NCBI RefSeq assembly: GCF_002374315.1
Contig: NZ_NWUX01000003.1
Span: 186,001 to 250,000 of the forward strand
Source: Vreelandella nigrificans
Lineage (GTDB): Bacteria > Pseudomonadota > Gammaproteobacteria > Pseudomonadales > Halomonadaceae
DNA length: 64,000 nucleotides
Direction: 5' to 3'
Part shown: piece by piece, positions 16,937 through 34,030 of the stretch
Layout: each line of letters begins with the position of its first letter
Position numbering within the stretch: the first letter of the stretch is position 1
Notes under the pieces: generated by a model
What the model saw: the letters and a program-made list of their open reading frames with translations, nothing else
What the model was told of the DNA's origin: nothing
Databases searched by the model: none
Translations under genes and position numbers: made by a program

Positions 16937-19189
16937 ATGATGGAAAGCAATAGGCAGGAGCCTAGCGCGCACCAGAACGCTGCTTCGGCCATGCTGGCAG
17001 TCTTTCCTACCACCGACAGCCTGAAGCACTTCGCGAAGGCGGGCGATAACGCCCCCCTGCTGGAGTCTCTGCTCGCTTTCGCTCAACGCCATGGTGTCTT
17101 AGAGGAGGCCGACGTTGATGCCCTGTATCGCTATATCGACGAGCATGGCGGCGGCGCGAGCAGATCACTGGACGCAGGAAGGCCACAAACCCTGGAAGAG
17201 CTGCTCGACAACAGGCAAGCGCATCTTTCACTGCCCCTATCGATACGCGCCTGGACCGAGCGCATCAATGCCTTACTCGACAAGCACCAAGTCGCACTCC
17301 CCCGAGTCAGCAACTCGATGCTGACTCGCTTGAAGCGAGAACCGGCCGATAACCTGCATAAACAGAACGTACTGCGCAGCCTGGCTTTCTGGATCGGGCA
17401 TCAGCGGCAAACACTCGGTGATCAGTGGCACTTCGAAGCGTTGTTGGCACTCTGCCAGGCCAGTAGGCGAACAGAAAATTTCACGGCGGGAGTACGCATG
17501 GGGTTTTCCCTCAGCAGCCGCGGCGACCTGATCGACAACCCCGTCGTCAACTGGCTCAAACGAACCCTCAAGCGCCACCTCGACCAGCGCGATGAAGGCT
17601 CGCCCGGCGGGCGCTGGGGCAAGGTACATTCCCACGATATCACCACGCTATATATAGACATCCCCAAAGAGCATGACTCCGGAGCCCCCCTCGCCTACCG
17701 CCAATGCCTGCGCCAGGCGGTTTCACTGGCCCACAAAGTCGCTATCAGTTGGGCACTGTCGGAACACTCCAGCCACAAGCGCTTTCTCTCTATCGGCCTG
17801 ACGACCGGCGAGTTCTCGAGTCTCGACGGCTATTTGCTACCACTACTCGGGGCCGAGCTACCGGGTGACCCAGTGGTTCGAGTGTCTAATTTCACCCGAC
17901 AATGCCTGCAGATCAACGACATACGGGTTCTGTACCAGGAGCGCCCCACCGAGGTGACACTCTTCAATGGTGAAGTGCTGGCAGCCTGGCCGCTCACTGC
18001 GCTCTGGAGCTTCATCTACTTCGATTTCGCTCCCGAACTGCAGAGCGACCCCGTGCTCAACGCGACAGGAACCAGATTCGAATTCGACACCTGGCAAACC
18101 TACACCCCAAATACCGCCAAGGATGCCATCAGCACCTTCCTGCGCACTCCCCATAACGCCATGTTGGGCATCGAGATCGCCAAGACGCTCTATTATCGCC
18201 ACCGCTTTGCCGAAGCCTGCGACATCCTGCGTATCGTGCTCAGCATAGACCCAAGCTCCATGGTGGCCCGCACGCTGCGCATGATGATCTACCGCAATAT
18301 GGCGGTGGAGTGCCCCACACTCTCCGGCGCCACAGCACTCTTTCGGATGGCGGCCCAGGACGCCTGGTGTATTCGTCAGCATAATGCTTCGCTACCCGAG
18401 GATTATTACTGTGAAGTCGGCGTATTAGCACTGGCCGAGGCCCTCACGTTGGCCAAGTTCTCCCGCGCCGCCGGTAACGCGATGGGTGAGGAGGAGCGCT
18501 TCCTGGCCCTGCTGGAAGAAGCCGCAGACCTCTTCGAAAAAGGCATGAGCGTCTCGCCTGCCGGCCTACGCTCAAGCTTCCTGCTGGCCAGCGCTCGCCT
18601 GCTGAAGGCGTTCTTTCGCGCAGACCCGCACCTACTGATTGATGACAGGCGCCGAGTGGATGGAAGCCAGCCACTGGCAGCGGAGCAGACAATCAACCTG
18701 CTAAGGCTGCGCGGCTATGATGTGGAGGCCGCACTCACCCCAGAAGGCAACCAGTTTGTGGAACACAAGCTGCTGGACAAAATCACGTTCCATAACGATG
18801 CCATTGCCCTGCGCGCCTATCGACCAACCTTGTGCTATACGGCCGCTGTCGCCCTGTGGGACTTCACCCCTCAACGCACCGCAGGCCTGGCCCGACAGGC
18901 CCTGGCGCTGATCGAGCAAGCCCGAACAATGGCACGAGAGCTGACACAGAGCGGCTTTCACATCTACTCCTTTAGCCGAATCTATGGCGAGATTCTGACC
19001 ACTGAACGCTTCCTTGAGCATATGGATAATGCCGAGCAAAGCATTCGCCGCACAGCAGGCAACACCCTCGATGCATGGCCGAACCACAAGCCCCTGCCAT
19101 TGAAGAAGCAAGCTGAACTCTTACTCATGGCCAACTTTCCCACATTAACGGCAACAGGGCAGACGGAGGGGAAGATAAAGAGTAACTAG
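16937..19189 (+). CDS. Conserved-looking protein of unknown function with a TPR-like middle
   Basis: This 750-residue protein has no signal peptide or obvious membrane segment. I do not recognise the family. Residues about 390-440 (AMLGIEIAKTLYYRHRFAEA followed by a DILRIVLSIDPSSMVARTL helix) resemble a tetratricopeptide or other helical-repeat hairpin. Several later blocks (AALALAEALTLAKFSR-like, LARQALALIEQARTMAREL) are long amphipathic helices. A beta-rich stretch with DITTLYIDIPKEHDSG lies near residues 230-260. The start has AAGGAG upstream. It is divergent from the alcohol/aldehyde dehydrogenase fusion, so it may be linked to its control or assembly. Its end is 82 bases from the distal end of the CRISPR array, with no sign of a CRISPR role. 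Confidence 0.75.
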   Translation: MMESNRQEPSAHQNAASAMLAVFPTTDSLKHFAKAGDNAPLLESLLAFAQRHGVLEEADVDALYRYIDEHGGGASRSLDAGRPQTLEELLDNRQAHLSLPLSIRAWTERINALLDKHQVALPRVSNSMLTRLKREPADNLHKQNVLRSLAFWIGHQRQTLGDQWHFEALLALCQASRRTENFTAGVRMGFSLSSRGDLIDNPVVNWLKRTLKRHLDQRDEGSPGGRWGKVHSHDITTLYIDIPKEHDSGAPLAYRQCLRQAVSLAHKVAISWALSEHSSHKRFLSIGLTTGEFSSLDGYLLPLLGAELPGDPVVRVSNFTRQCLQINDIRVLYQERPTEVTLFNGEVLAAWPLTALWSFIYFDFAPELQSDPVLNATGTRFEFDTWQTYTPNTAKDAISTFLRTPHNAMLGIEIAKTLYYRHRFAEACDILRIVLSIDPSSMVARTLRMMIYRNMAVECPTLSGATALFRMAAQDAWCIRQHNASLPEDYYCEVGVLALAEALTLAKFSRAAGNAMGEEERFLALLEEAADLFEKGMSVSPAGLRSSFLLASARLLKAFFRADPHLLIDDRRRVDGSQPLAAEQTINLLRLRGYDVEAALTPEGNQFVEHKLLDKITFHNDAIALRAYRPTLCYTAAVALWDFTPQRTAGLARQALALIEQARTMARELTQSGFHIYSFSRIYGEILTTERFLEHMDNAEQSIRRTAGNTLDAWPNHKPLPLKKQAELLLMANFPTLTATGQTEGKIKSN

Positions 19190-19271: not shown

Positions 19272-22200
19272 TTTCTGAGCTGCCTGGGCGGCAGCGCACT
19301 CATACCCCCATGCATAAAACTCCTCGATAGCTTTCTGAGCTGCCTGGGCGGCAGCGCACGCGTGATGTATTCGCGCCCGCTGTCTTTATCTTTTCTGAGC
19401 TGCCTGGGCGGCAGCGCACATGTACGCAGGCAAGGAGGTAGGAGGAATCTGTTTCTGAGCTGCCTGGGCGGCAGCGCACTTTATTAAATGGATGGGTGGC
19501 AAGCGCCGCCTTTTCTGAGCTGCCTGGGCGGCAGCGCACCTTCCATTTCATCGGGATCAAGCACACCTGGTTTTCTGAGCTGCCTGGGCGGCAGCGCACG
19601 ACCCGGTATTGAAGTAACGGCTCCATCTCTTTTTCTGAGCTGCCTGGGCGGCAGCGCACCCAAGCGCTATCAATAAGTAAGCGAAAATCATTTTCTGAGC
19701 TGCCTGGGCGGCAGCGCACTCCGAGACCGATCGCGACTCGCTGGCAGGTGATTTCTGAGCTGCCTGGGCGGCAGCGCACACACCGTGGTGATGACAGCGG
19801 CTGTACACGGTTTTCTGAGCTGCCTGGGCGGCAGCGCACGTCGAGTGTTGGCCATGAGGGGTATCCGTTCTTTTCTGAGCTGCCTGGGCGGCAGCGCACC
19901 ACCATTTGGGCTTTTAGGGCGACGTCATAGCTTTCTGAGCTGCCTGGGCGGCAGCGCACTGAAGGATGCGGCAAATACTGTGCTGCGGGCATTTCTGAGC
20001 TGCCTGGGCGGCAGCGCACAATTTGCCGGGGCACGCGTATGTTTAGTAGCATTTCTGAGCTGCCTGGGCGGCAGCGCACCTTAACCGCGTCAACGATGTT
20101 TTGGCGGCTACTTTCTGAGCTGCCTGGGCGGCAGCGCACCTTAACCGCGTCAACGATGTTTTGGCGGCTACTTTCTGAGCTGCCTGGGCGGCAGCGCACC
20201 AGATCGGTGCTACTTGGTACTTTGCCCGCGAGTTTCTGAGCTGCCTGGGCGGCAGCGCACCATTAGTGATTTACCAACGCCCTCTTCTGCGGTTTCTGAG
20301 CTGCCTGGGCGGCAGCGCACTTGCTCCTAGCTCTGACCCATCTGGCGAGTCTTTTCTGAGCTGCCTGGGCGGCAGCGCACGTGCGTTCATTCGCCGCCGA
20401 ATTTACAGACGTTTTCTGAGCTGCCTGGGCGGCAGCGCACCCGCCGTCGCATTAATATTACTCATCCCTGACTTTCTGAGCTGCCTGGGCGGCAGCGCAC
20501 TGACCCGCCCGCCGCCGTGGAATTTCGTTACCTTTCTGAGCTGCCTGGGCGGCAGCGCACGGGCAGAGCGACTATCACGTGATAGCGTTGATTTTCTGAG
20601 CTGCCTGGGCGGCAGCGCACTATTGCTCCCCGCCTTGTTGCTGGCCGGGCGTTTTCTGAGCTGCCTGGGCGGCAGCGCACGTATTCAAGGCGCAGCTGCT
20701 CAAGGTCGAACATTTCTGAGCTGCCTGGGCGGCAGCGCACGTGCCAGACGGCTCCATCCTAATCACCTCGCTTTTCTGAGCTGCCTGGGCGGCAGCGCAC
20801 AAATGGCGCAAGGCGTGCGAGTGACGAAAGCATTTCTGAGCTGCCTGGGCGGCAGCGCACGCGATGTGCTAGAAGCAGCACCATTTGCCTTGTTTCTGAG
20901 CTGCCTGGGCGGCAGCGCACGGCAATCATCTTCATTGTTAACGCCTCCGTTCTTTCTGAGCTGCCTGGGCGGCAGCGCACGTGTAGTGCTATCAGTCATC
21001 TCTTTTACCCCTTTTCTGAGCTGCCTGGGCGGCAGCGCACATGCGGATGATGTGGCGGCGCGTATTAGCGCTTTTCTGAGCTGCCTGGGCGGCAGCGCAC
21101 CCGGCAGTGGCCATTTCCTGCAGCTTTTTATTTTTCTGAGCTGCCTGGGCGGCAGCGCACACATCAAAGCATGAGTTCCTGGATGGCTTGCTTTTCTGAG
21201 CTGCCTGGGCGGCAGCGCACCACCACCTCAATGGTCCAGCTATTTTCGTCGCTTTCTGAGCTGCCTGGGCGGCAGCGCACTGAGCGTTAGCGCCACTAAT
21301 GACAAGGCCAGCTTTCTGAGCTGCCTGGGCGGCAGCGCACCGGAAGCGCTTTCCGCTGGCCTTGTCATTAGTTTTCTGAGCTGCCTGGGCGGCAGCGCAC
21401 GTGGGCAAGCCCGATTACCAGCCCGCGCCGCCTTTCTGAGCTGCCTGGGCGGCAGCGCACTAGCTGATGCTCTCCGGGGCTCTTTCTGATGATTTCTGAG
21501 CTGCCTGGGCGGCAGCGCACGCCGGGATTAGCACCTTAGCGGTCACGATTCATTTCTGAGCTGCCTGGGCGGCAGCGCACCTTATCGGCCTCCACGCTTT
21601 CTGCAGCTTTACTTTCTGAGCTGCCTGGGCGGCAGCGCACCGTGCACGTCTTGCGTTCTGGCCACTGTAAAGTTTCTGAGCTGCCTGGGCGGCAGCGCAC
21701 GATGTTAGCAAATCGCTGTATCAGCGCGTGTCTTTCTGAGCTGCCTGGGCGGCAGCGCACTTCCCACGCCCAAACTGGTTTAGTGTGTCGATTTTCTGAG
21801 CTGCCTGGGCGGCAGCGCACGTCGTGCCGGTTTCTGCGATGATAATGTCCATTTTCTGAGCTGCCTGGGCGGCAGCGCACATAATGAAATAGATGATCCT
21901 GACAACAATTCGTTTTCTGAGCTGCCTGGGCGGCAGCGCACCGATACGTGGCCATCGTACATGCGTGGAGAGTTTTCTGAGCTGCCTGGGCGGCAGCGCA
22001 CCGTGCGGCGTGGGTGAGCGGTGAAGAGGGCGTTTTCTGAGCTGCCTGGGCGGCAGCGCACTTTATCACCGTTGCCAATTTTAAATGCGTACTTTTCTGA
22101 GCTGCCTGGGCGGCAGCGCACTCCACAAACTCCGCGCTAGGATCGTCTTTAATTTTCTGAGCTGCCTGGGCGGCAGCGCACCTGGCTCGTGAGCATGACG

Positions 22201-25200
22201 CTGTTGCTAAGCCTTTCTGAGCTGCCTGGGCGGCAGCGCACGCACTACATATGGCATCAAACTTTATGACGGTTTTCTGAGCTGCCTGGGCGGCAGCGCA
22301 CCCGTTGACGTTGAGTATGAGAGCGCTATCACGTTTCTGAGCTGCCTGGGCGGCAGCGCACTTATTTCAGCTCTTGGGCTTTGTGGCATTCGCTTTCTGA
22401 GCTGCCTGGGCGGCAGCGCACTGCGCCCGGGCACGCTATCCCGCCGATATGCATTTCTGAGCTGCCTGGGCGGCAGCGCACCACAACGCCCCGTTATGCA
22501 ATTATTTTTCGCGTTTCTGAGCTGCCTGGGCGGCAGCGCACAGACCAACTTTTTGGGTTTAGTGATCCTTTTTTTTCTGAGCTGCCTGGGCGGCAGCGCA
22601 CATGAATTCCGAGACCTTCATGCCGAAGTGCTGTTTCTGAGCTGCCTGGGCGGCAGCGCACTTCGCGCAGAACCGCTAGAGCGGCGTCAGTCTTTTCTGA
22701 GCTGCCTGGGCGGCAGCGCACTGATGCAGTCTACCGCGTGCGTGAGTCACTGATTTCTGAGCTGCCTGGGCGGCAGCGCACAAGCTGGCGTAGCACCTTA
22801 ACTAGCTCGCCCTTTTCTGAGCTGCCTGGGCGGCAGCGCACCCAGCATGCGGCAATTGTGACGAAAACGGAGATTTCTGAGCTGCCTGGGCGGCAGCGCA
22901 CTCTTTGATCTCTTTACGCTTCTTTTCCAGCGTTTTCTGAGCTGCCTGGGCGGCAGCGCACAAACATGGATATAACCCCGCTTTGGCGGGGTTTTTCTGA
23001 GCTGCCTGGGCGGCAGCGCACCAAGCCGCTGTTGCCCACTGTCGTTGCGGGCGTTTCTGAGCTGCCTGGGCGGCAGCGCACGTATCAGCGTGTCAGTGAA
23101 AGCGAAAGTCGCTTTTCTGAGCTGCCTGGGCGGCAGCGCACCAGTACGCATTAAAGATGAATGCGCAGCTCCATTTCTGAGCTGCCTGGGCGGCAGCGCA
23201 CTAGTTATGTACGAGCACTCAATTAGAGATGCTTTTCTGAGCTGCCTGGGCGGCAGCGCACTCGGCGCGCCCTCAAACGTGCGGATCACTGACTTTCTGA
23301 GCTGCCTGGGCGGCAGCGCACTCGATCACTACCGTAGCGCCCGTTATCACGATTTTCTGAGCTGCCTGGGCGGCAGCGCACCGTGACGCTTGGGTCGTTA
23401 ATCTGCGCGCCCTTTTCTGAGCTGCCTGGGCGGCAGCGCACCGCCCCTGCCAGCAGAGCGCCATTGCACCTGCTTTCTGAGCTGCCTGGGCGGCAGCGCA
23501 CGCCGAGCTAGAGGAGCGGGAGGCGGCGCTGGCTTTCTGAGCTGCCTGGGCGGCAGCGCACGATTGGCCCCACGACTGGGCACAGTTCGCCACTTTCTGA
23601 GCTGCCTGGGCGGCAGCGCACTCAGCGCCTGCATTTGATTTGCAAGACGCGATTTTCTGAGCTGCCTGGGCGGCAGCGCACGTTATCACGATGGCGGGCG
23701 CGGTGAACTCGTGTTTCTGAGCTGCCTGGGCGGCAGCGCACGGTTAGAAGGCTCTTTCTCAGCTCCTCTTTGATTTCTGAGCTGCCTGGGCGGCAGCGCA
23801 CCATGTCTCGATAAACCATTGCAAACGCCCACCTTTCTGAGCTGCCTGGGCGGCAGCGCACATTTGGCGGCTGCGGCAGCACTGGTGTGTGTATTTCTGA
23901 GCTGCCTGGGCGGCAGCGCACCCCAAGATCGTCATAATAACAGGCTTGCTCTGTTTCTGAGCTGCCTGGGCGGCAGCGCACGAGGACGGCTGCTACGCCG
24001 ATTGCGGCGCCCATTTCTGAGCTGCCTGGGCGGCAGCGCACCGGCCATGTGGTCGCCACCGGGGGAGGTGGATTTTCTGAGCTGCCTGGGCGGCAGCGCA
24101 CCTCTGCCGTTTGCTCAAACACGGGTGGCGTTATTTCTGAGCTGCCTGGGCGGCAGCGCACGTGCACAAGATGAAAGATTACTGCTCACGCTGTTTCTGA
24201 GCTGCCTGGGCGGCAGCGCACAAGTCGTATTCGTATTGCTCTAGCGCGCTCATTTTCTGAGCTGCCTGGGCGGCAGCGCACTTAGTGGCCCTCCTTGTAA
24301 CCAATCTGTGGATTTTCTGAGCTGCCTGGGCGGCAGCGCACTGACATACGAAAACGCCACTAATGGTTTTATTTTTCTGAGCTGCCTGGGCGGCAGCGCA
24401 CAACCGATAGGAAATAAAAAAGCCACCCGGCAATTTCTGAGCTGCCTGGGCGGCAGCGCACGTAACCGATCAGCGACAAAAACGGCCTGTATATTTCTGA
24501 GCTGCCTGGGCGGCAGCGCACGCTACTTACCATTGGAAACGTGCTTGAAACGTTTTCTGAGCTGCCTGGGCGGCAGCGCACCGTATCAACGACAGACTTG
24601 AGCGCCTCATATATTTCTGAGCTGCCTGGGCGGCAGCGCACTTTTATGGCTTCCTCGCGTAGTTTTTCGTTCGTTTCTGAGCTGCCTGGGCGGCAGCGCA
24701 CGTGGCCTTTGATTTGTAGGTGATTACTCTGTGTTTCTGAGCTGCCTGGGCGGCAGCGCACCCGTATATTGCTAAACATGCTTTTCATGTGGTTTTCTGA
24801 GCTGCCTGGGCGGCAGCGCACGCGGGGGTGCGTCTTATTTGGAGGGTGTCATTTTTCTGAGCTGCCTGGGCGGCAGCGCACGGCAACCTGCTTCTGAATG
24901 GCGACCTCAAAGATTTCTGAGCTGCCTGGGCGGCAGCGCACGTATGCGCGAATCTGCGCTAAAGAATAGCTATTTTCTGAGCTGCCTGGGCGGCAGCGCA
25001 CTTGCTCGCCTGGATGTTATGACAGCGAGCAATTTTCTGAGCTGCCTGGGCGGCAGCGCACTGGATCCGGCGGCGCTGGCAAAGGCATCCAATTTTCTGA
25101 GCTGCCTGGGCGGCAGCGCACACCATTAGTGGCGTTTTCGTATGTCATCACTTTTTCTGAGCTGCCTGGGCGGCAGCGCACGATCTATTGCGCCCCCCTG

Positions 25201-25421
25201 GTTTTGTTGGGCATTTCTGAGCTGCCTGGGCGGCAGCGCACATTAGCTCGTCGGGGTCACGGCCCCATAGGATTTTCTGAGCTGCCTGGGCGGCAGCGCA
25301 CAAATAGATGTGCTATCATAGCCATTCGGCTGTTTTCTGAGCTGCCTGGGCGGCAGCGCACGCGGCGTTGTGCGTGAGGTAGTTCCGGGTGGTTTTCTGA
25401 GCTGCCTGGGCGGCAGCGCAC
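19272..25421 (-). CRISPR. Type I-F CRISPR array, 103 repeats and 102 spacers
   Basis: Counting line by line gives 103 copies of a 28-bp repeat that all read as identical, with 32-bp spacers except two of 33 bp (20200-20232 and 21881-21913). In the transcribed (minus) direction the repeat starts GTGCGCTGCC, has a 6-bp stem GCTGCC/GGCAGC with loop GCCCA, and ends CTCAGAAA, the expected 8-nt crRNA handle after Cas6f cleavage. The leader and cas genes lie at the right end, so the newest spacers are near 25,390 and the oldest near 19,300. The most distal repeat is not degenerate. One spacer is duplicated (20080-20111 and 20140-20171) and several spacers overlap in sequence. Confidence 0.99.
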
Positions 25422-25550
25422 TAGAGCATATCAAAATTAATGTGCTGATTGTTAAAGAGCTTTAGCCAAAAAAAGCGATATCACCCTTTTTTGAGCGATA
25501 CCGCTAAGTGGTTGATTATTGGTTGCCAATTTTCACGTTAGAAAAAAGGG
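25422..25550 (-). promoter_or_regulatory. CRISPR leader with IHF-like sites
   Basis: This AT-rich gap lies between the cas6f stop and the first repeat. On the minus strand it contains AATCAACCACTTA (25505-25517), a full match to the IHF consensus WATCAANNNNTTR, and a second 12/13 match at 25438-25450, about 17 bases from the repeat. Type I-F leaders in characterised bacteria use IHF bending for spacer integration, so both sites are plausible. The array promoter should also lie here, but no single -10/-35 pair stood out. Confidence 0.7.
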
Positions 25551-26120
25551 TCAAAACCACGGCACGGTAGCGTTACTGCTTAAACCATAGTGGTTAAACG
25601 CACCCGCCACCGCGTTTTCATGAGGCTTGCTGTGCTCTATAAACAGGCTGAATCGCTGCTGGGTAGAACGGCTATTGATCTGTACAAAGGGCAGCTCTAT
25701 ACGCCGCGCCGCAACTTTGGCGTAAATTGTCCGCGCTTCGTCTTCTGAAATGTTATGCCGCTTGGCATAGCGTTTGGCACGGCTTGCGCTCCCTGTATTG
25801 AACTGCTTCCGCGCGACATTAATATGCTGCGCATTCGTAGGAACAGCGATTACCTCACTCACCTTGGCATGGTCACGCATGCCCGCTAACCAGTTCGCGC
25901 TCATTAGCTGCTGCAAACGCGCTTGAGTACCATGTAGGCGAAGATGATCACTTAGTGTGCGAGCGCGAACACCATGTTTATGCTTTGGAAAACTGACACC
26001 TACATCTGCGGCTTCTAGATCAAACAACGCTCGGTGCAACTTGTTGTAAAGCGCGCCCATGAGCATTGTTTCCGGAAAGTCCGGGTCGGGGCGCAAGCGA
26101 ATATCAATGTAGTGATCCAT
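25551..26120 (-). CDS. cas6f: CRISPR endoribonuclease Cas6f (Csy4)
   Basis: This 189-residue protein begins MDHYIDIRLRPDPDFPETM and contains LMGALYNKLHRALF with the catalytic His near residue 29, SFPKHKHGVRARTL, and a C-terminal RFSLFIEH and FNHYGLS block typical of Csy4. It binds the repeat hairpin, cuts on its 3' side and stays on the mature crRNA at the end of the Csy surveillance complex. The gene starts three bases after the csy3 stop and is the last gene before the leader. Its length matches the family (about 187 residues). Confidence 0.96.
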   Translation of the reverse strand: MDHYIDIRLRPDPDFPETMLMGALYNKLHRALFDLEAADVGVSFPKHKHGVRARTLSDHLRLHGTQARLQQLMSANWLAGMRDHAKVSEVIAVPTNAQHINVARKQFNTGSASRAKRYAKRHNISEDEARTIYAKVAARRIELPFVQINSRSTQQRFSLFIEHSKPHENAVAGAFNHYGLSSNATVPWF

Positions 26121-26123
26121 GGC

Positions 26124-27149
26124 TTACCCCGCTTCGCCGAACACACCACCACGGATCAGCGTTGCCATCACAAAATGCTGCTGCTCAGTGGACGGCACTG
26201 AATCCTTGATCATCCAGTTATCCAGCAGTGAGTAGAAATCGGCTTTCTGCTTGGGCTGGCGGTACGCTTTGCCCTGAGTCGTTACTGATCCATAAGGCTC
26301 TACAGCAATAGGCCCAAGGTCTTCATCGTTTTCATTGGGGTACCAGGTGTCTATAGTACGAATGGCGTTCCCCAATTTCTGAGAGTGAATACCGGCAATA
26401 TCGCTGACGTGATAAAGCGTTTTGCTCTTATCACCACGCCCGCGATCAAGAATCAGCTCTTGAGAGGGGAACACCTCTTGACCACTGCCCATTCGTACAT
26501 AGGCCACTACCTCTAGCAGTAAGTGCTGCTCGCCCGCTAACGCGGAGGCGATAACTCCCGCAAGCTCTTTAAGCTCGGTAGTATCCTCGAAGGCACGCAA
26601 CGAAAGCGACAATGCATCAAACGTCCACTCTTTGGTGGCTTTGCCTTGAGCCAACTGGCGAATACTGACTTCTACTTGCTCTGCGCCCATGCGGTTACGC
26701 CACAGAAAGCGACCATTAGCGAGGTTATTGGCGTAACGGTGCGCCAGTTCGCCGAAGCCTTGCGCTTGTTTATACTCGGCAACTGCCTGTTCCAGCTTGG
26801 CTTGGTACTCAGCGTTATTACAGGCTGATGGCGTTCCAGCACCAGCTAATACGCGCAGGGTGAAGCGAGCAACCAGGGTATCTGCATTGTGGGGCAGTGT
26901 GGCGACATCGACGGTTTGTAGGTTGGGGTTTTCAATCGCGGCATCTAGCTTGGCGGGATCCTGATCTTTCGCTTTCAAGCGGTTGGAAATAGTGCCGCGA
27001 ACCGACTTTTCACGCACCACGACCGGCTGCCACTGCTGCTCATCTTCCCGCTTATCCCAATTGCTGGCGTAAAGCAGGGCATCAGAAGGGTCGAGCTTAC
27101 GCTCAAAGGCGAGGACGGAAGCGGTTTTAAGGGTATCGTTTTTAGCCAT
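26124..27149 (-). CDS. csy3: Csy complex backbone protein Csy3 (Cas7f)
   Basis: This 341-residue protein starts [27 protein letters not shown], as Csy3 proteins do, and has [13 protein letters not shown] (RNA-contact region), FPSQELILD, and a C-terminal [12 protein letters not shown]. Six copies polymerise along the spacer part of the crRNA in the I-F surveillance complex. It lies 15 bases after csy2 with a clear AGGAGCTTC-type ribosome binding site. All domains look intact. Confidence 0.96.
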
Positions 27150-27164
27150 GATGAAGCTCCTTAT

Positions 27165-28133
27165 TTACTGTGCAGTGGCGCGTAGGTGGTAATCGTTATT
27201 GAGTCGGTAAAGTCCCGCTTCTTCGTCGTTATCAACGTACCAAAGCAGGTCTTCAGGTTGCTTCATGCGGTGCGGGCTGACCCATTCACCAATGGAGTAG
27301 AGGCTTTCAACAAAGCGAAACTGGGTCTTGGCATCGCGAGCATTGGCCACTTCTCCAGACTGGAAAAGGTCGGAAATAGCGCCATAACCCACCGGAATCG
27401 GCACCAGCCAGCCGCGATAGGGCCGCTGAGCCTGCCAAACGGGCTTCTCGCTGGGTTCGCCTTCATTCTCTAACGTGCAAACATGGTTAAGACGAGAGAG
27501 GTCTAACCACGCATCCAGCAGGCTGCACTCGGGGTTGTGCTGCTGCAGCGTTTGATGGTGTTCGGTGAGGTAGTCGTCGCGCAGGGTTAGCGCAAAGCCG
27601 GGGAGCCAGCGCCGTTTTAGGCGTGCGAATTGCTTGTAGCGTTCATCTTCTTTGTCATCCAGCGCCACCCATTGCGGTCGCTGCTTGTGGCTTGGTACGT
27701 TGCGGTTAGGCACTACGCTACCACCGGCAATTCGCATGCCCGACACAATTTCACCAATTTGATAGGCAATATCCTCATGCTCACTTTCTGTAGCAGCACT
27801 ATCAATCGTGAAGATCAGCGTGATATCAAGATGGACGCGCCCTTCTTCTACAATGGCTGCCGTCCCGCCGGTTTTATCCACCGGATTACGCGTTAGGTGA
27901 AAACCACGAATGTAGCCGCCTTCAGTGGCCTGGGCTTCAAAATCGTGGCAAATAACACCGACATTACCGAGCGAAACGTTGATACCTGCCGAAAAGAGCT
28001 TGCGCTCCAAGGCGTGCATCAAGCCTACAAAAGCACTCATGGCGGGAAAGCCCCAGGTCATTGGACTGGAAATGGCATTGGCGTTTTGTACCCGCAGGCG
28101 CGGCAGGACCAGGAGGTTTTTCACTTTATTCAT
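27165..28133 (-). CDS. csy2: Csy complex protein Csy2 (Cas5f)
   Basis: This protein of about 322 residues begins MNKVKNLLVLPRLRVQNANAISSPMTWGFPAMSAF, the normal Csy2 start. It binds the crRNA 5' handle together with Csy1 and helps read the PAM. Three in-frame starts exist (GTG 28142, ATG 28139, ATG 28133); the last lies 8 bases after GGAGG and is preferred. It overlaps the end of csy1, so the two are translationally coupled. LTLRDDYLTEHHQTLQ and RPYRGWLVPIPVGYGAISDLF are family-typical segments. Confidence 0.95.
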   Translation of the reverse strand: MNKVKNLLVLPRLRVQNANAISSPMTWGFPAMSAFVGLMHALERKLFSAGINVSLGNVGVICHDFEAQATEGGYIRGFHLTRNPVDKTGGTAAIVEEGRVHLDITLIFTIDSAATESEHEDIAYQIGEIVSGMRIAGGSVVPNRNVPSHKQRPQWVALDDKEDERYKQFARLKRRWLPGFALTLRDDYLTEHHQTLQQHNPECSLLDAWLDLSRLNHVCTLENEGEPSEKPVWQAQRPYRGWLVPIPVGYGAISDLFQSGEVANARDAKTQFRFVESLYSIGEWVSPHRMKQPEDLLWYVDNDEEAGLYRLNNDYHLRATAQ

Positions 28134-29490
28134 CGTCATCACCTCCTGGCAGGTTGGTTAAGTCTTCCATTAGGCTTTCCATCCAGCGGCGGTCACGATC
28201 CTGCAGGCGTTGATGGGTAGCATCTTTCGCCAATGTTTTCTTCCAGTGGCGAAATTCCACATCACCAAAGGGAAGCTTTCCGCCGAGCGCGGTATTCAGC
28301 CAGTTAGCAAAGCGGTGACGAATATCGTCTGCCCACTCCACGCTGTTTCGCGCTTCACGAAAAGAGCTATCTTTCTCGGCGCGGCCAGGATCTAGCCAGT
28401 AAATTTCTTCTACTGGTAATTCGCACTTCTCATCGTCACTCCATCCCGCAGGCAGGCTATGCATCTGCATAGCGAATAGCGCCAGCTCATCCATCAGTAT
28501 GGCGGTGTAGTCATCGCGCAAATCGCGTGTGTGCATATCTGACGTAGGGTTTGTTTCAAGAAATTGTTTGAGGTCTTTAACCAGCGAGCGCACGTCCAAA
28601 CGGCTGCCAAAGACGCCAGGGTGAGAGAAAACCGATGCGACTTTCAGCGGTGGGCGAATATCGCGCACATTCCAGCTCGGTGGCATTGAGGCCAGCAAAT
28701 AGTTATTCCCGCCTCGCTCGCTATTCAGCTGCGAGATATTTTGTGGCTTAGTGCCCCCCATTTTCTGTACGGCTAAGTCGGGATAGTTGTGCACGGTTTG
28801 CTCGGCGTATTTGCCCTCCCGCTTGGCTTTACGTGCCTCTTTGGCCTCTTCGCTAAAGCGATCATGGTTAATAGTTTGAAATACGCGATGCGCTAGCGAG
28901 GTGGCATAGAGCGGGGCTAGCAGATGGAAGTCTTCATCCTCCAAGGTGTCTTCGCCCACCAGCCAATAGAGTTGCTTGCCCCGAGTGTGTGAAGCGTGCT
29001 CGCCACTCGGCTCGGTAATCGCCGCAAAAGCGTTGATCCAAGCCTGGGCTTGTTCGTGGTTATCGCTTAACGCTTTTGCCAGCTCACCATCATTTTCCAA
29101 CGCACGTTCAAGCAGTGATTTTCCCTCAAATTGTAGCTTCAAGAACTTATAAACATCCAAAGCTGCAGCATTTCCCACAACATCGCCCGCAAAATCAGCG
29201 GGAAGCGTGTGGCTGCCGACAAGATGATGGTTGTTTAGCAATTCAGGTGGGGCGTAAAGATTGGAGCCTTTGGCATCCGGATGAATAGGTTTGAGGGAGT
29301 GGGTAACGACTTGCAGTTGACCAACACGTCTTGCCGCATCGTTAATCCAGGTATCGAACTGGAACTGCTCCACTAACGCCTGGTATTTTGGATCGTCGGG
29401 AGCTAGCTTTTCCGCTTTGGTATCGAAACGCTCTTTTAAGAAGGTTTCGACCCCAGAGCGAATTTCTGCTGCTCTGCTATTATCTGCCAT
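28126..29490 (-). CDS. csy1: Csy complex large subunit Csy1 (Cas8f)
   Basis: This 454-residue protein contains the hallmark GGTKPQNISQLNSERGGN (about residues 247-264) followed by LLASMPPSW. Cas8f sits at the 5' end of the crRNA with Cas5f, recognises the PAM and recruits Cas2/3 after target binding. The C-terminal helical region ends in an acidic tail (GGDDDE). It is separated from cas2-3 by about 220 bases holding an opposite-strand HicB-like ORF, so the csy genes probably have their own promoter. AGGAAA precedes the ATG. Confidence 0.96.
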   Translation of the reverse strand: MADNSRAAEIRSGVETFLKERFDTKAEKLAPDDPKYQALVEQFQFDTWINDAARRVGQLQVVTHSLKPIHPDAKGSNLYAPPELLNNHHLVGSHTLPADFAGDVVGNAAALDVYKFLKLQFEGKSLLERALENDGELAKALSDNHEQAQAWINAFAAITEPSGEHASHTRGKQLYWLVGEDTLEDEDFHLLAPLYATSLAHRVFQTINHDRFSEEAKEARKAKREGKYAEQTVHNYPDLAVQKMGGTKPQNISQLNSERGGNNYLLASMPPSWNVRDIRPPLKVASVFSHPGVFGSRLDVRSLVKDLKQFLETNPTSDMHTRDLRDDYTAILMDELALFAMQMHSLPAGWSDDEKCELPVEEIYWLDPGRAEKDSSFREARNSVEWADDIRHRFANWLNTALGGKLPFGDVEFRHWKKTLAKDATHQRLQDRDRRWMESLMEDLTNLPGGDDDE

Positions 29491-29714: not shown

Positions 29715-32700
29715 TCATTTGCTCCTCCAAAACCCCAATACGGAGTGGTATCCCCACCGTGGGCTTCTAGCCGAAGCAGTCACCGTGCCGAAGGTACGGG
29801 CGGCGCGGTCAAGGGAGATATCCAAGTCTTCCGCTAAGTCAGCCAGTGCTGTTAAGTAGTCGCTTGCACCCCAGGGTTGTATCCGTTCGCCCTGCTCGTT
29901 TGCTAGGTCTATCCGCACCAGTAGGCTCTCTTCCACCGGAACGTAGAGTTTTTCACCGCGCCTTGCGCCATCATCTACGCGGTGTAGCGTCCAGGTTTCA
30001 CCGCCCTCATCGGGCAGCAGCGCTAGGGTTATTTCAGGTTCGAGCTGCTTACGAAATGGGTCACGTTGAATCAACACACCGGTTAAATGCAGCTGCGGCA
30101 TCACATGCCAGCTATAGGCGCCTAACGGCGGTGGCTTGGGTGTTTTCCCTATCCGTATCTCTTTTTTGGTTAACGGCTCGGCGGGTTGTTCGATCATCAG
30201 TTGGTGTAGCCGCTCGTGCTCCAGGTCTACCAGGCTATCTTTGGCGTGCAGCGTTTCTCGTGCCAGCACGCGGGGGCGGGCATCAATCACTTGATACTCA
30301 TCTGGCGTTAACAGCGTGTTAAGTGAGTGGCTATTAAGACGCCAGGCCATCTTCGTTTCAAAGCCTGGCTTATGAAACGCGGGCTCATCCGCGCGCTCCA
30401 GATGCTTTAGATTGGTCTCCAACAGCAGAATATTCGCCACCTCACAGGCCTGTTCGCGATGGCGACGCACCCGGCCTGCTAACTGAATAATCGAGCGCAT
30501 GGAAGAAGGCTCCACTATGGCCCAATCATAGTCGTGGTCGCGGCCCACTTCCGTGACCGGCGAGCCAAGCACCATAAACAGGTGATCGTTCTCTTCGCTG
30601 CTATCCAGTAGGCGGCGGATATCCGGCTGCTGAAAAACGCGATCTGGCTCAGCCCGTTGCAGCGTTCTGTCTAACCGGCGCTCAATTTCTGAGCGCATGA
30701 CCAATGGGTGGCGGGAGTGATAGACGCACAGATGAAGTCGCACACCCTCAGGTGCGCCCTGCTGAAACAGTGCTCTGGCCACATCTACTAAGGGGTCAAT
30801 ATTGGCCATTCGGATCAAGCCAAAGCTGACGCGTTTTCCCGAATGGGGGTCAACGGAGTGATGCTGTTGGTGAAGCGCTAGCGCATGTTCACGCAGCAGG
30901 GATGCAATGGCGGGTCTTATCTCTTCGGGGCGTTTACCCAACGGTGGCAACGCTAAAATATCTGCGCGGCGGCGTACCGGGCTTTTGGCTAGGCGCTCTA
31001 ACCGACGCTTGGCAAAGGCGTGGTGAGCCTCTCGAAAAGTTTCGCTACTGGAGCAGTTGTGATGCTGGCGGTCGTGCTCGTCGAACCAAGCGCAGCAAAT
31101 ATCGGTCGCTAACCCCGGCTCGCCGCGGTGACGCTGAAAGGCTTCGCGACCACTGCGATAGGCTTCATACAAACCCTCCACTAGCGCAGGCGGCAAGGTG
31201 GCCGAGGAAAGCAGCACCCGTGAACCTAGCAGCCCAGCCCAATTGACGAGCCGGGTAAGCGCCGGCAGGTCGTTGATATCGAAATCGTCGATTTCATCGA
31301 GCACTAAATCACTGCTCATTAGGCGTAGCATGGGCACGATCTGCCGTCCGCCTCGTGTGCTCTCCGTGGCGGGCACTAGATGGTCAACGGTACATACTAA
31401 AATCGGTGCGGCGATCAGCGCGCGGGTGCCCGGCTCATCGCTCAAACGCCGCAGTACCGGGTGGCTATCAAAATTGCCATCAAACACCACGTGGGCATCT
31501 TCTTCAATCAGTGCCTGTTTGGATGCTGAACCACTGGCTTCGGCTTCCTGCTCGTAGTGCTCAAACAGGGCTTTATTAGCGCTGCCACCCACGCGCACGG
31601 CGAGTTCATCTTCACCTAAATGCAAACGATCACGTAAAGCTTGGCCGGTTTGCAGGGTTAGGGTGCGCAACCCCAACGCAATGCTAAAGCGCGCGCCCTG
31701 CTGTGGGTCAGCCAGAGCGTACATAATGCGGCCATTCGCTAAGGTTTTACCACAGCCAGTGGACGCCATGTTAATGCCAAAAAAGCCTTGGCGCTGGCTA
31801 CGCTCTCTAAGCGATTGCGCCAGATCGAAAGCTTTATCCTGCCAGCGAAAGCGTGGGTGGCTACTGCGCTTACGAAAGCCTTTATGGCGCGCTAAACGGG
31901 GTAAGTGGCTGTCTACGCTGGGTAGTGCACGGGCAACTGCTGCCGCGTGTTTCTCAACTCCTAAAATATGCTCATCTAACGGTTGATTGGGCTGTCCGGT
32001 TTTGCGCACGGTATTGGCAATTAACGGGTAATTGGGCTCGCCGCGCACGCGATGCTGTAGGTCTTCCAGGCTTGAGTAATGGTGATCGGCCAGCATTAAG
32101 CTAAGCCGAGCTAAGTGCATAACGTAGCGGCTTTCCAGCCAGTGGCTACCATTTTGCAGCCGTACCTGTAACCGCGTGGCGAGCTTTGTGGCACGCTCAC
32201 GCCAACGTGGCGTGCTAACAGGTAATCCGCCCTTGAACTGCCAGTAGGGTGTGATGCGTTTAGGGTCTTGGGTCTCGGGAATCTCGTTCCACTCGGCATA
32301 AATAGAAGCAAACAATCCGCCCAATTGCTCCGCCTGAAGTGGCGCCTTTCCTCTGCCCCAGCGCCTTTCATTTTCACCATCGTTTTCCGGCGGTTTTAAA
32401 GGTAGCCGGTGGTGGCTAAGCACTAGCCAACCCAGCGCAGCCGCCAGCGGCGGTAAACGACTAAACACCGTAGAGGTGGGTGTATCTATCCCGTCGCGCT
32501 CTAATCCTGCCAACCAGTCCTGCTCTTGATAGCCGCCTTCGGCTAGGCGCGCAAGCCATGTGGAGTCGTCATCACTACCTACAAACGCTTGGAACAGGCG
32601 TAGCGAGATCCACTCATGGCGGTATAAGTTGCGCCCTTCCAATTTGCCTTTTAGCCGCTGCTGAAAGGCGTCGCAGGCTTTTCCCAGGTCGTGGAGTAAC

Positions 32701-33059
32701 GCAGCCATCGCAGTAAGCAATAGAATGTCTTCACCGTTGTGCCAGTCGTTCTCATCGCGACGGCGAAGGATATCTCTGGCGGTAGTATTGGTTGGTACTG
32801 CACCATTGATATTAAACCGCGACGCATCCCCCACTACCCACATTAGCTCGCTGTGGTCGTGGCCACGAATCCAGTGGCAGGCGACGGCGGTATTCTTGCG
32901 GGCTTTTTTACGCAGCAGCTTGCGCAGTGTATCTAGTCCCGCCTGGGTGATAGGTGTTTGCCAGGTGCGATCTCCTCGGCGTTCGGCAAACTGGTCGAGT
33001 ATTCGGCGCGTCTCTTTAAGGGCATTTTTGTTGCACTGGGAAATAAGCAACACATTCAT
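29715..33059 (-). CDS. cas3: Cas2-Cas3 fusion nuclease-helicase (type I-F)
   Basis: This 1114-residue protein has an N-terminal Cas2 domain (MNVLLISQCNKNALKETRRI, about 1-95), which is diagnostic for subtype I-F. It then has an HD nuclease (LLHDLGKACDAF near residue 120), a superfamily 2 helicase with Walker A MASTGCGKTLANGRI, DEID-type motif LVLDEIDDFD, motif III LLSSATLPP and motif VI QLAGRVRRHREQ, and a C-terminal domain. With Cas1 it integrates spacers; recruited by the Csy complex it unwinds and shreds target DNA. Its ATG overlaps the cas1 stop (ATGA). All catalytic motifs are present. Confidence 0.97.
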   Translation of the reverse strand: MNVLLISQCNKNALKETRRILDQFAERRGDRTWQTPITQAGLDTLRKLLRKKARKNTAVACHWIRGHDHSELMWVVGDASRFNINGAVPTNTTARDILRRRDENDWHNGEDILLLTAMAALLHDLGKACDAFQQRLKGKLEGRNLYRHEWISLRLFQAFVGSDDDSTWLARLAEGGYQEQDWLAGLERDGIDTPTSTVFSRLPPLAAALGWLVLSHHRLPLKPPENDGENERRWGRGKAPLQAEQLGGLFASIYAEWNEIPETQDPKRITPYWQFKGGLPVSTPRWRERATKLATRLQVRLQNGSHWLESRYVMHLARLSLMLADHHYSSLEDLQHRVRGEPNYPLIANTVRKTGQPNQPLDEHILGVEKHAAAVARALPSVDSHLPRLARHKGFRKRSSHPRFRWQDKAFDLAQSLRERSQRQGFFGINMASTGCGKTLANGRIMYALADPQQGARFSIALGLRTLTLQTGQALRDRLHLGEDELAVRVGGSANKALFEHYEQEAEASGSASKQALIEEDAHVVFDGNFDSHPVLRRLSDEPGTRALIAAPILVCTVDHLVPATESTRGGRQIVPMLRLMSSDLVLDEIDDFDINDLPALTRLVNWAGLLGSRVLLSSATLPPALVEGLYEAYRSGREAFQRHRGEPGLATDICCAWFDEHDRQHHNCSSSETFREAHHAFAKRRLERLAKSPVRRRADILALPPLGKRPEEIRPAIASLLREHALALHQQHHSVDPHSGKRVSFGLIRMANIDPLVDVARALFQQGAPEGVRLHLCVYHSRHPLVMRSEIERRLDRTLQRAEPDRVFQQPDIRRLLDSSEENDHLFMVLGSPVTEVGRDHDYDWAIVEPSSMRSIIQLAGRVRRHREQACEVANILLLETNLKHLERADEPAFHKPGFETKMAWRLNSHSLNTLLTPDEYQVIDARPRVLARETLHAKDSLVDLEHERLHQLMIEQPAEPLTKKEIRIGKTPKPPPLGAYSWHVMPQLHLTGVLIQRDPFRKQLEPEITLALLPDEGGETWTLHRVDDGARRGEKLYVPVEESLLVRIDLANEQGERIQPWGASDYLTALADLAEDLDISLDRAARTFGTVTASARSPRWGYHSVLGFWRSK

Positions 33060-34030
33060 TGCTCCGCGCCCCCCAACGCTTGAGCCACTTCCTTGAGCGT
33101 ATCAATCATGAAATCGAGGGATTCGGTGCGGGTTAAGCGCTCAATGCAGGCTTGGCGAAACTCCTGCTCTTCATCGCCGCGCATGGCGGAAATAAATGCT
33201 TGAGGCAGAATCACGGCGTCTTTCACCAAATCCGCCACATCAAACACCAGTCCTCCGCGGCGGGTTTTACCGTGCAGTACCGCAAGCCCGTGGGGAATGC
33301 CCAATACCCAGGTGGCGGTCGCCGCTAGGCCATAGGCGAGGTAGTTGCCGTGATCAAGAAAGCGGTTGGCAGGGTCAGTGCCTGAGCCGCGCTTGGCGCG
33401 GGTGAAGTCACCGTAGTCGACCGCATTAACCGCTAGCTTGAACAGCGTTTTGGTTAAGCGTGCTTCTAAGGTCAGTAGATCAACGGTGTTGGGGGCTTTG
33501 GTAATTGCTTCACGGTGATGGTTCAGTGCGCTATGCAGGTGGTCGGTGGAAATAGTAAAGCCTGCGTCTTTCATCACACGGCTTGTCCATAGCGCTTCAA
33601 TACGCGCAAGGCGCGCCTGCTGAAACGCGCGGGCGGCATCCAGACGTTTTACATCGTCAAACCAGAAACGCACCCAGTATTGAAGATACTCCGTGGGCCG
33701 GTACTCGCTTTGCGGGGTTAGCCAGGCGACATCCACATCCACCTCATTGGCGGCAAATAACGGCGTGCCACCGCCACCACAAAACCCGACTAATACACCT
33801 GCTTTGGCAAGCTCACGCATGGCCGCTTGGGTAATTGAGGTACCGGTGCCCAACAGTATCGAGGTGGTGTTGGCGATGGGGATATTCCAATAACGGGATT
33901 TGCTGCCCTCATCGGTAACGTATTCTACTCGGCCACCATTCACCAGCACCCGGCAGTGCTGCAGGTAATAGAGGTTAGCGCGTTTGGAGTGGAGGATTGT
34001 TTTAAGATCCGAAGGTGAGAAGTCTTCCAC
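33056..34030 (-). CDS. cas1: CRISPR integrase Cas1 (type I-F)
   Basis: This 324-residue protein starts at a GTG preceded by CAGGAG. The metal-binding active site is visible as Glu in LLTLEARLTKTLF (about residue 189), His in GLAVLHGKTRRGG and Asp in LVFDVADLVKD. NIPIANTTSILLGTGTSITQAAM is typical of the I-F Cas1 N-terminal domain. Cas1 forms the adaptation complex with Cas2-3 and inserts new spacers at the leader end. It is the first gene of the locus and translationally coupled to cas2-3, so the adaptation unit looks intact. Confidence 0.97.
   Translation of the reverse strand: MEDFSPSDLKTILHSKRANLYYLQHCRVLVNGGRVEYVTDEGSKSRYWNIPIANTTSILLGTGTSITQAAMRELAKAGVLVGFCGGGGTPLFAANEVDVDVAWLTPQSEYRPTEYLQYWVRFWFDDVKRLDAARAFQQARLARIEALWTSRVMKDAGFTISTDHLHSALNHHREAITKAPNTVDLLTLEARLTKTLFKLAVNAVDYGDFTRAKRGSGTDPANRFLDHGNYLAYGLAATATWVLGIPHGLAVLHGKTRRGGLVFDVADLVKDAVILPQAFISAMRGDEEQEFRQACIERLTRTESLDFMIDTLKEVAQALGGAEQ

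Follow-up and report, generated by a model that had tools for sequence, protein, structure and literature searches.

The type I-F system of Pectobacterium atrosepticum, when primed, acquires spacers from both strands, and these cluster near the primed protospacer (PMC4117759). Adaptation in that bacterium (PMC4117759, PMC5059440) shares many features with the locus studied here, including Cas1, a Cas2-3 fusion, Csy proteins and a CC/GG PAM, as well as 32-nt spacers with a few of 33 nt, spacers from both strands and a one-base slip (here in spacer S87). The P. atrosepticum process is known from plasmid experiments, however, whereas we infer the order and trigger of uptake from a natural array that lacks an exact target match. 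A second point of comparison comes from Sulfolobus, in which overlapping spacers from both strands expose each other's CCN PAMs (PMC3468723). Those data comprise hundreds of fresh spacers from cultures, whereas here a single fixed array is examined and the PAM is read without a known target. Overlapping spacers are described in the same source as rare in natural Sulfolobus loci (PMC3468723).

The pair of overlapping spacers described below (S68 and S69) illustrates that such spacers reveal a natural array's PAM and direction even without a known target, and the test spans 61 arrays. The analysis also names the phage gene under attack and leads to a checkable statement about which PAMs the phage can lose by silent change. 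Our search of the literature found no account of this array, of this target or of such a count of overlaps over arrays, which does not prove their absence from print.

The type I-F locus and its array

We analyzed a stretch of 64,000 nucleotides of the Vreelandella nigrificans genome (the window), whose minus strand carries a complete type I-F system. All six of the cas proteins (Csy4, Csy3, Csy2, Csy1, Cas3f and Cas1f) exceed the cut-offs of the NCBIfam type I-F models, and all are encoded on the minus strand: cas6f (csy4) at 25551-26120, cas7f (csy3) at 26124-27149, cas5f (csy2) at 27165-28142, cas8f (csy1) at 28126-29490, the cas2-3 fusion at 29715-33059 and cas1f at 33056-34030. At its N terminus, Cas3f has a match to the I-F Cas2 domain. 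The array (19272-25421, minus strand) comprises 103 identical 28-nt repeats, which we take to resemble known I-F repeats, and 102 spacers, 100 of them of 32 nt and two of 33 nt. A preliminary description of this DNA had proposed a type I-F system, and the cas gene set, the 28-nt repeat, the 32-nt spacers and the CC PAM all agree with it. The position of cas6f, the strand of the cas genes and the side of the PAM also concur with the minus-strand direction predicted there for the array.

Spacers are numbered in the crRNA (minus) sense from S1 (25362-25393), which adjoins the leader. Because the array follows csy4, we placed the leader at the end with the higher coordinates, which would make S68 the newer spacer and S69 the older one. 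The putative leader region (25422-25550, minus strand), between the array and cas6f, is assigned from position alone. Two other features of the array deserve mention. Spacers S88 and S89 (20080-20111 and 20140-20171) are identical and probably reflect a tandem duplication of one unit. Adjoining the distal end of the array is a 750-aa open reading frame (16937-19189, plus strand) with no Pfam or NCBIfam match at an E value of 0.001.

Overlapping spacers and the CC PAM

The older and newer spacers of the pair, S69 (21281-21312) and S68 (21341-21372), are both on the minus strand and are separated by one of the 103 identical repeat copies (21313-21340, minus strand). On the plus strand S69 reads TGAGCGTTAGCGCC-ACTAATGACAAGGCCAGC and S68 reads CGGAAGCGCTTTCC-GCTGGCCTTGTCATTAGT; in crRNA sense the two are GCTGGCCTTGTCATTAGTGGCGCTAACGCTCA and ACTAATGACAAGGCCAGCGGAAAGCGCTTCCG, respectively, and their first 18 nt are exact reverse complements. 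These shared 18 bases and the positions of both spacers had been reported in the preliminary description, and letters and coordinates proved correct on re-reading. Merged, the two spacers form a 46-nt target with CC 5' of both crRNA-sense protospacers. The CC directly before the start of S69 is visible inside S68, and vice versa, so the dinucleotides claimed for both protospacers are indeed present in the array.

We looked for similar pairs in the stretches flanking csy4 for 60 of the 96 csy4 places found in the family Halomonadaceae besides that of the window, which yielded 61 arrays with the window's own and 3,478 spacers. Each locus was represented by a single array, its longest run, and because stretches stopped at 20 kb or at the contig end, some arrays are cut. 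From 76 listed pairs we excluded full-length duplicates, mismatched pairs and two repeat-derived pairs of one array (L158), leaving 13 pairs with partial exact overlaps of at least 11 nt (eight on the same strand and five on opposite strands). The reversed-sequence control, covering 136,421 spacer pairs in the 61 arrays, had no end-to-end overlap of this length, and thus the overlap of S68 and S69 is not due to chance. Theirs is one of two partly overlapping pairs among 3,417 adjacent pairs, and the sole opposite-strand one of those two. The overlap is real and well resolved, and represents ordinary CRISPR immunity, a good natural example of a known process. The 13 overlapping pairs lie closer together than expected by chance, the median separation in the array being 6, whereas that of random pairs is 23.3 (P = 0.0016).

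Flanks visible within the partner spacer were CC in 12 of 14 cases against a background of 7.0%, and the two non-CC flanks both came from one 11-nt pair (L152). Head-to-head pairs with CC on both sides and an overlap of at least 6 nt numbered four (S68/S69, S9/S28, and spacers 15/83 of L145 and 12/19 of L172), with none in the control. The window's array holds three more overlapping pairs, all on the minus strand. S35 (23322-23353) and S29 (23682-23713) come from the same strand and share 11 nt, with CC, and both match one 53-nt stretch of Synechococcus phage Yong-L1-251 with 2 mismatches each. S9 (24882-24913) and S28 (23742-23773) overlap by 7 nt on opposite strands, with CC on both sides. 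The opposite-strand overlap of S5 (25122-25153) and S18 (24342-24373) extends over 26 nt, and their PAMs fall outside the merged stretch.

In array L158 (G002:C45; 115 spacers), the source of the two excluded pairs, spacer 25 starts with 15 nt of the window-type CRISPR repeat, and spacer 5 does so with one difference; spacers 25 and 5 run on into the reverse complement of the array's own spacers 77 and 23. An exact search flagged spacer 25 but not spacer 5. The array itself seems to have been the source of both, with uptake at a CC within the repeat. Spacers 109-113 of this array are five consecutive identical copies, a long run of duplicated units.

Further evidence for the PAM came from the targets of the other spacers. 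At up to 7 mismatches, 26 of the 101 distinct spacers matched in 183 loci (2.11 Mb) that overlap each other and were partly picked because spacers match them; the reversed control gave none. The count excluded nine own-array loci, S89 (the copy of S88) and seven matches that were spacers in other arrays. The best-match protospacer carried CC for 18 of the 26 spacers, which together with the 12 of 14 in-array flanks bears out the earlier identification of CC, in crRNA sense, as the I-F PAM. The eight exceptions were S32 (CA), S41 (AA), S55 (AC), S62 (AT), S69 (GC), S73 (GC), S79 (TC) and S87 (GC). S79 has TC in its best match and CC in several others, and the best match of S73, in L192, has 7 mismatches. 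The two 7-mismatch matches of S41 (L095 and L161) are uncertain, because this spacer (22962-22993) holds a perfect terminator-like hairpin (AACCCCGCCAAAGCGGGGTT). The 33-nt spacer S87 (20200-20232) opens with a C that in phage targets forms the second base of the CC PAM, which probably reflects a one-base slip of the PAM into the spacer at uptake. Slips of this kind have been described for I-F uptake (PMC5059440).

The tape measure target and its phages

Translated, the 46-mer gives EALSAGLVISGANA, which is conserved in the tape measure protein of Halomonas and Vreelandella siphophages such as vB_HmeY_H4907. We arrived at this target by searching all spacers against 82 same-genus genomes (15 with a match, G000 included), scoring the best three candidates per genome, which led to prophage stretches. 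In the prophage of G064, S68 matches at 9 mismatches with a CC PAM, and the full 46 nt aligns with 15 mismatches, 12 of them at third codon positions; the site falls in a 1,167-aa tape measure protein (PHROG 339). Searches starting from this gene, from related genes and from the peptide brought the total to six different homologous 46-mers that align with the target over its whole length, at 11, 13, 13, 15, 15 and 15 mismatches. In one of these relatives (L096, G113) every one of the 13 mismatches falls at a third codon position, and EALSAGLVISGANA is identical in all of its 14 residues. The peptide is also exact in 8 of 45 homologous proteins (E <= 1e-30). Ten of the top 23 tape measure homologues are organism-named, all from Vreelandella or from Halomonas, in which Vreelandella was formerly placed. 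S68 and S69 thus have one target, which in relatives lies in a single gene.

The end-to-end alignments also bear on two other explanations of the shared 18 nt. Nothing was found in favor of two unrelated targets with a common 18-nt word, or of a chance match; the contiguous 46-nt homologues and the clean reversed control speak against this explanation, and we give it a very small probability; the single target claimed at the outset holds against it. Spacer flipping or rearrangement of the array could have produced S68 by copying S69 or its junction in reverse, since protospacers are flipped at a low rate in I-F systems (PMC5059440) and exact spacer duplications occur both here (S88 and S89) and in other arrays. 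Yet only 18 of the 32 nt are common to the two spacers, and both of the unique 14-nt ends align contiguously in the same gene of relatives, which makes such an origin highly improbable.

The PAMs of the two spacers fared differently in the six relatives. The S68 PAM is read from positions 1 and 2 of a glycine codon and is CC in all six. That of S69 falls on positions 2 and 3 of a serine codon (spacer sequence TCC) and is CC in none of them (CG, CG, CA, GT, GC and GC). As the relatives do not confirm it, the evidence for the PAM of S69 comes from the array and from the PAM at other protospacers. The preliminary description had predicted one contiguous match with CC on both sides; contiguous homologues were found, with CC on the S68 side, but neither an exact match nor CC on the S69 side.

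The exact 46-mer was not found in phages, plasmids, IMG/VR or 275 family genomes. Searches of phages and plasmids returned 44 and 8 records, respectively, all weak matches and none spanning 80% of the query, and neither an exact 20-mer from the merged target nor two back-translated patterns matched in IMG/VR. Among the 275 family genomes, scored again by the best three candidates per genome, eight had matches at E <= 0.01, including G000 with its own array. The other seven, with 18-22 mismatches over the 46 nt at best, were judged to be chance matches; four (L040, L041, L042 and L044) read ..ADKASG.. and, by eye, apparently represent one bacterial protein. Three exact 18-mer matches in genome contigs, with 19-22 mismatches over the 46 nt, were also attributed to chance. 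In the bacterium's own genome the 18-mer occurs with up to 3 mismatches at nine places, two of which are the array. The backwards pattern gave six, and the seven places outside the array are therefore no evidence of self-targeting. Within the window, the search for self-targeting gave two 9-mismatch matches outside the array and none better.

The closest viral contig found (IMGVR_UViG_2698536813_000001) has 6 mismatches over 32 nt to S68, 6 to S69 and 5 to S71. Spacer S71 (21161-21192, minus strand), two places older than S69, targets the head-tail adaptor gene (PHROG 442) of H4907-like phages with a CC PAM and 5 mismatches. The S71 and S68 sites are 3.4-4.5 kb apart, and 3.4 kb apart in the closest contig. 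Phage vB_HmeY_H4907 is described as a temperate siphophage of the proposed family Suviridae (PMC10580944). It carries a tape measure gene with the S68/S69 site and an adaptor gene with the S71 site. It differs from the 46-nt target at 15 positions, however, and is a relative rather than the sampled phage. Two neighboring spacers were also considered. In G010, S66 has a match with 3 mismatches and CC in a region resembling a prophage, beside an anti-repressor gene, and no link to H4907-like phages was established. S65 was dropped as an additional H4907 target (10 mismatches, CC, and by eye a stop in the target's frame). A translated search with all spacers was also dropped, as the control likewise gave many scores of 30-39 and a few of at least 40.

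Targets tend to form runs along the window's array, with groups that are biased because conserved genes are easier to match. S68, S69 and S71 form the run against H4907-like phages. S29, S34, S35, S36 and S40 match 1.1 kb of phage Yong-L1-251 (L009 12617-13726) with 2-7 mismatches and CC; five spacers on so short a stretch suggest that a relative of this phage infects halomonads. S87 has a match in the terminase gene of Salmonella phage SEN5. Around the S87 site in halomonad prophages, S79, S86, S92 and S93 match at distances of up to 1.3 kb, and S78 and S80 at up to about 2.7 kb. There are exceptions to these runs: S81, S83 and S84, inside the S78-S93 run, match the G064 prophage, which is of the S68/S69/S71 kind, and S101 matches Yong-L1-251. 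Spacers with the same boundaries also occur in other arrays, where spacer 78 of L139 (G015) corresponds to S36 (3 mismatches), spacer 54 of L144 (G076) to S93 (2) and spacer 93 of L161 (G009) to S79 (6). The protospacers of S36, S93 and S79 seem to have been resampled from diverged phages by the arrays of other species.

Acquisition of the second spacer

Serial uptake at the leader end from one kind of phage, S69 and then S68, is well supported, with the order inferred from the usual growth of arrays at that end. We consider it probable that S68 was then taken up by a primed or interference-driven process at one site in the phage tape measure gene. S69 would have been captured first, beside a CC on the coding strand, and S68 next, on the other strand, from a CC 18 nt further in, giving the head-to-head overlap of the protospacers. 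The second uptake would have been triggered by S69 already acting on the phage, through priming or interference. Type I-F uptake of this sort tends toward the displaced strand, 5' of the first protospacer, and S68 matches this expectation: its protospacer is on the other strand, shifted by 14 nt toward the PAM side of S69. This is a single case, and the newer-to-older offsets of the opposite-strand pairs are mixed in direction (-14 for S68/S69, then -18, -21, +6 and +15). Thus, the proposal of primed adaptation in the preliminary description fits the published I-F geometry in strand and direction, but serial unprimed or interference-driven uptake would fit as well.

The two spacers may instead stem from independent naive uptakes from a repeatedly met phage, the overlap being an occasional outcome of many draws from a 40-kb genome. 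Random draws from one such phage would give overlaps of at least 11 nt in approximately 0.1% of same-phage pairs (43 offsets over 40,452 bp), which suffices for the two overlaps observed among the 3,417 adjacent pairs without any special closeness. Furthermore, other overlapping pairs are up to 68 spacers apart and call for repeated encounters rather than one priming event. The closeness of overlapping pairs in the arrays speaks against independent uptake, though serial unprimed uptake would have the same effect. S71 and S69, both older than S68, match the same phage group as S68 does, and in one studied I-F system priming is reported to exceed naive uptake more than 500-fold in activity (PMC5059440). 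On balance, independent uptake is possible but somewhat unlikely, and we retain the primed or interference-driven uptake of S68 as the working explanation.

A more specific function for S68, the re-anchoring of immunity at the S69 site, appears doubtful. If it applied, a silent mutation that lets a phage evade S69 could leave priming intact, and with the opposite-strand S68 the site would again be targeted, through a PAM whose loss could not be silent. In the 22 closest proteins (P0001-P0022, inspected by eye), the residue encoded at the S68 PAM codon is glycine in every case.
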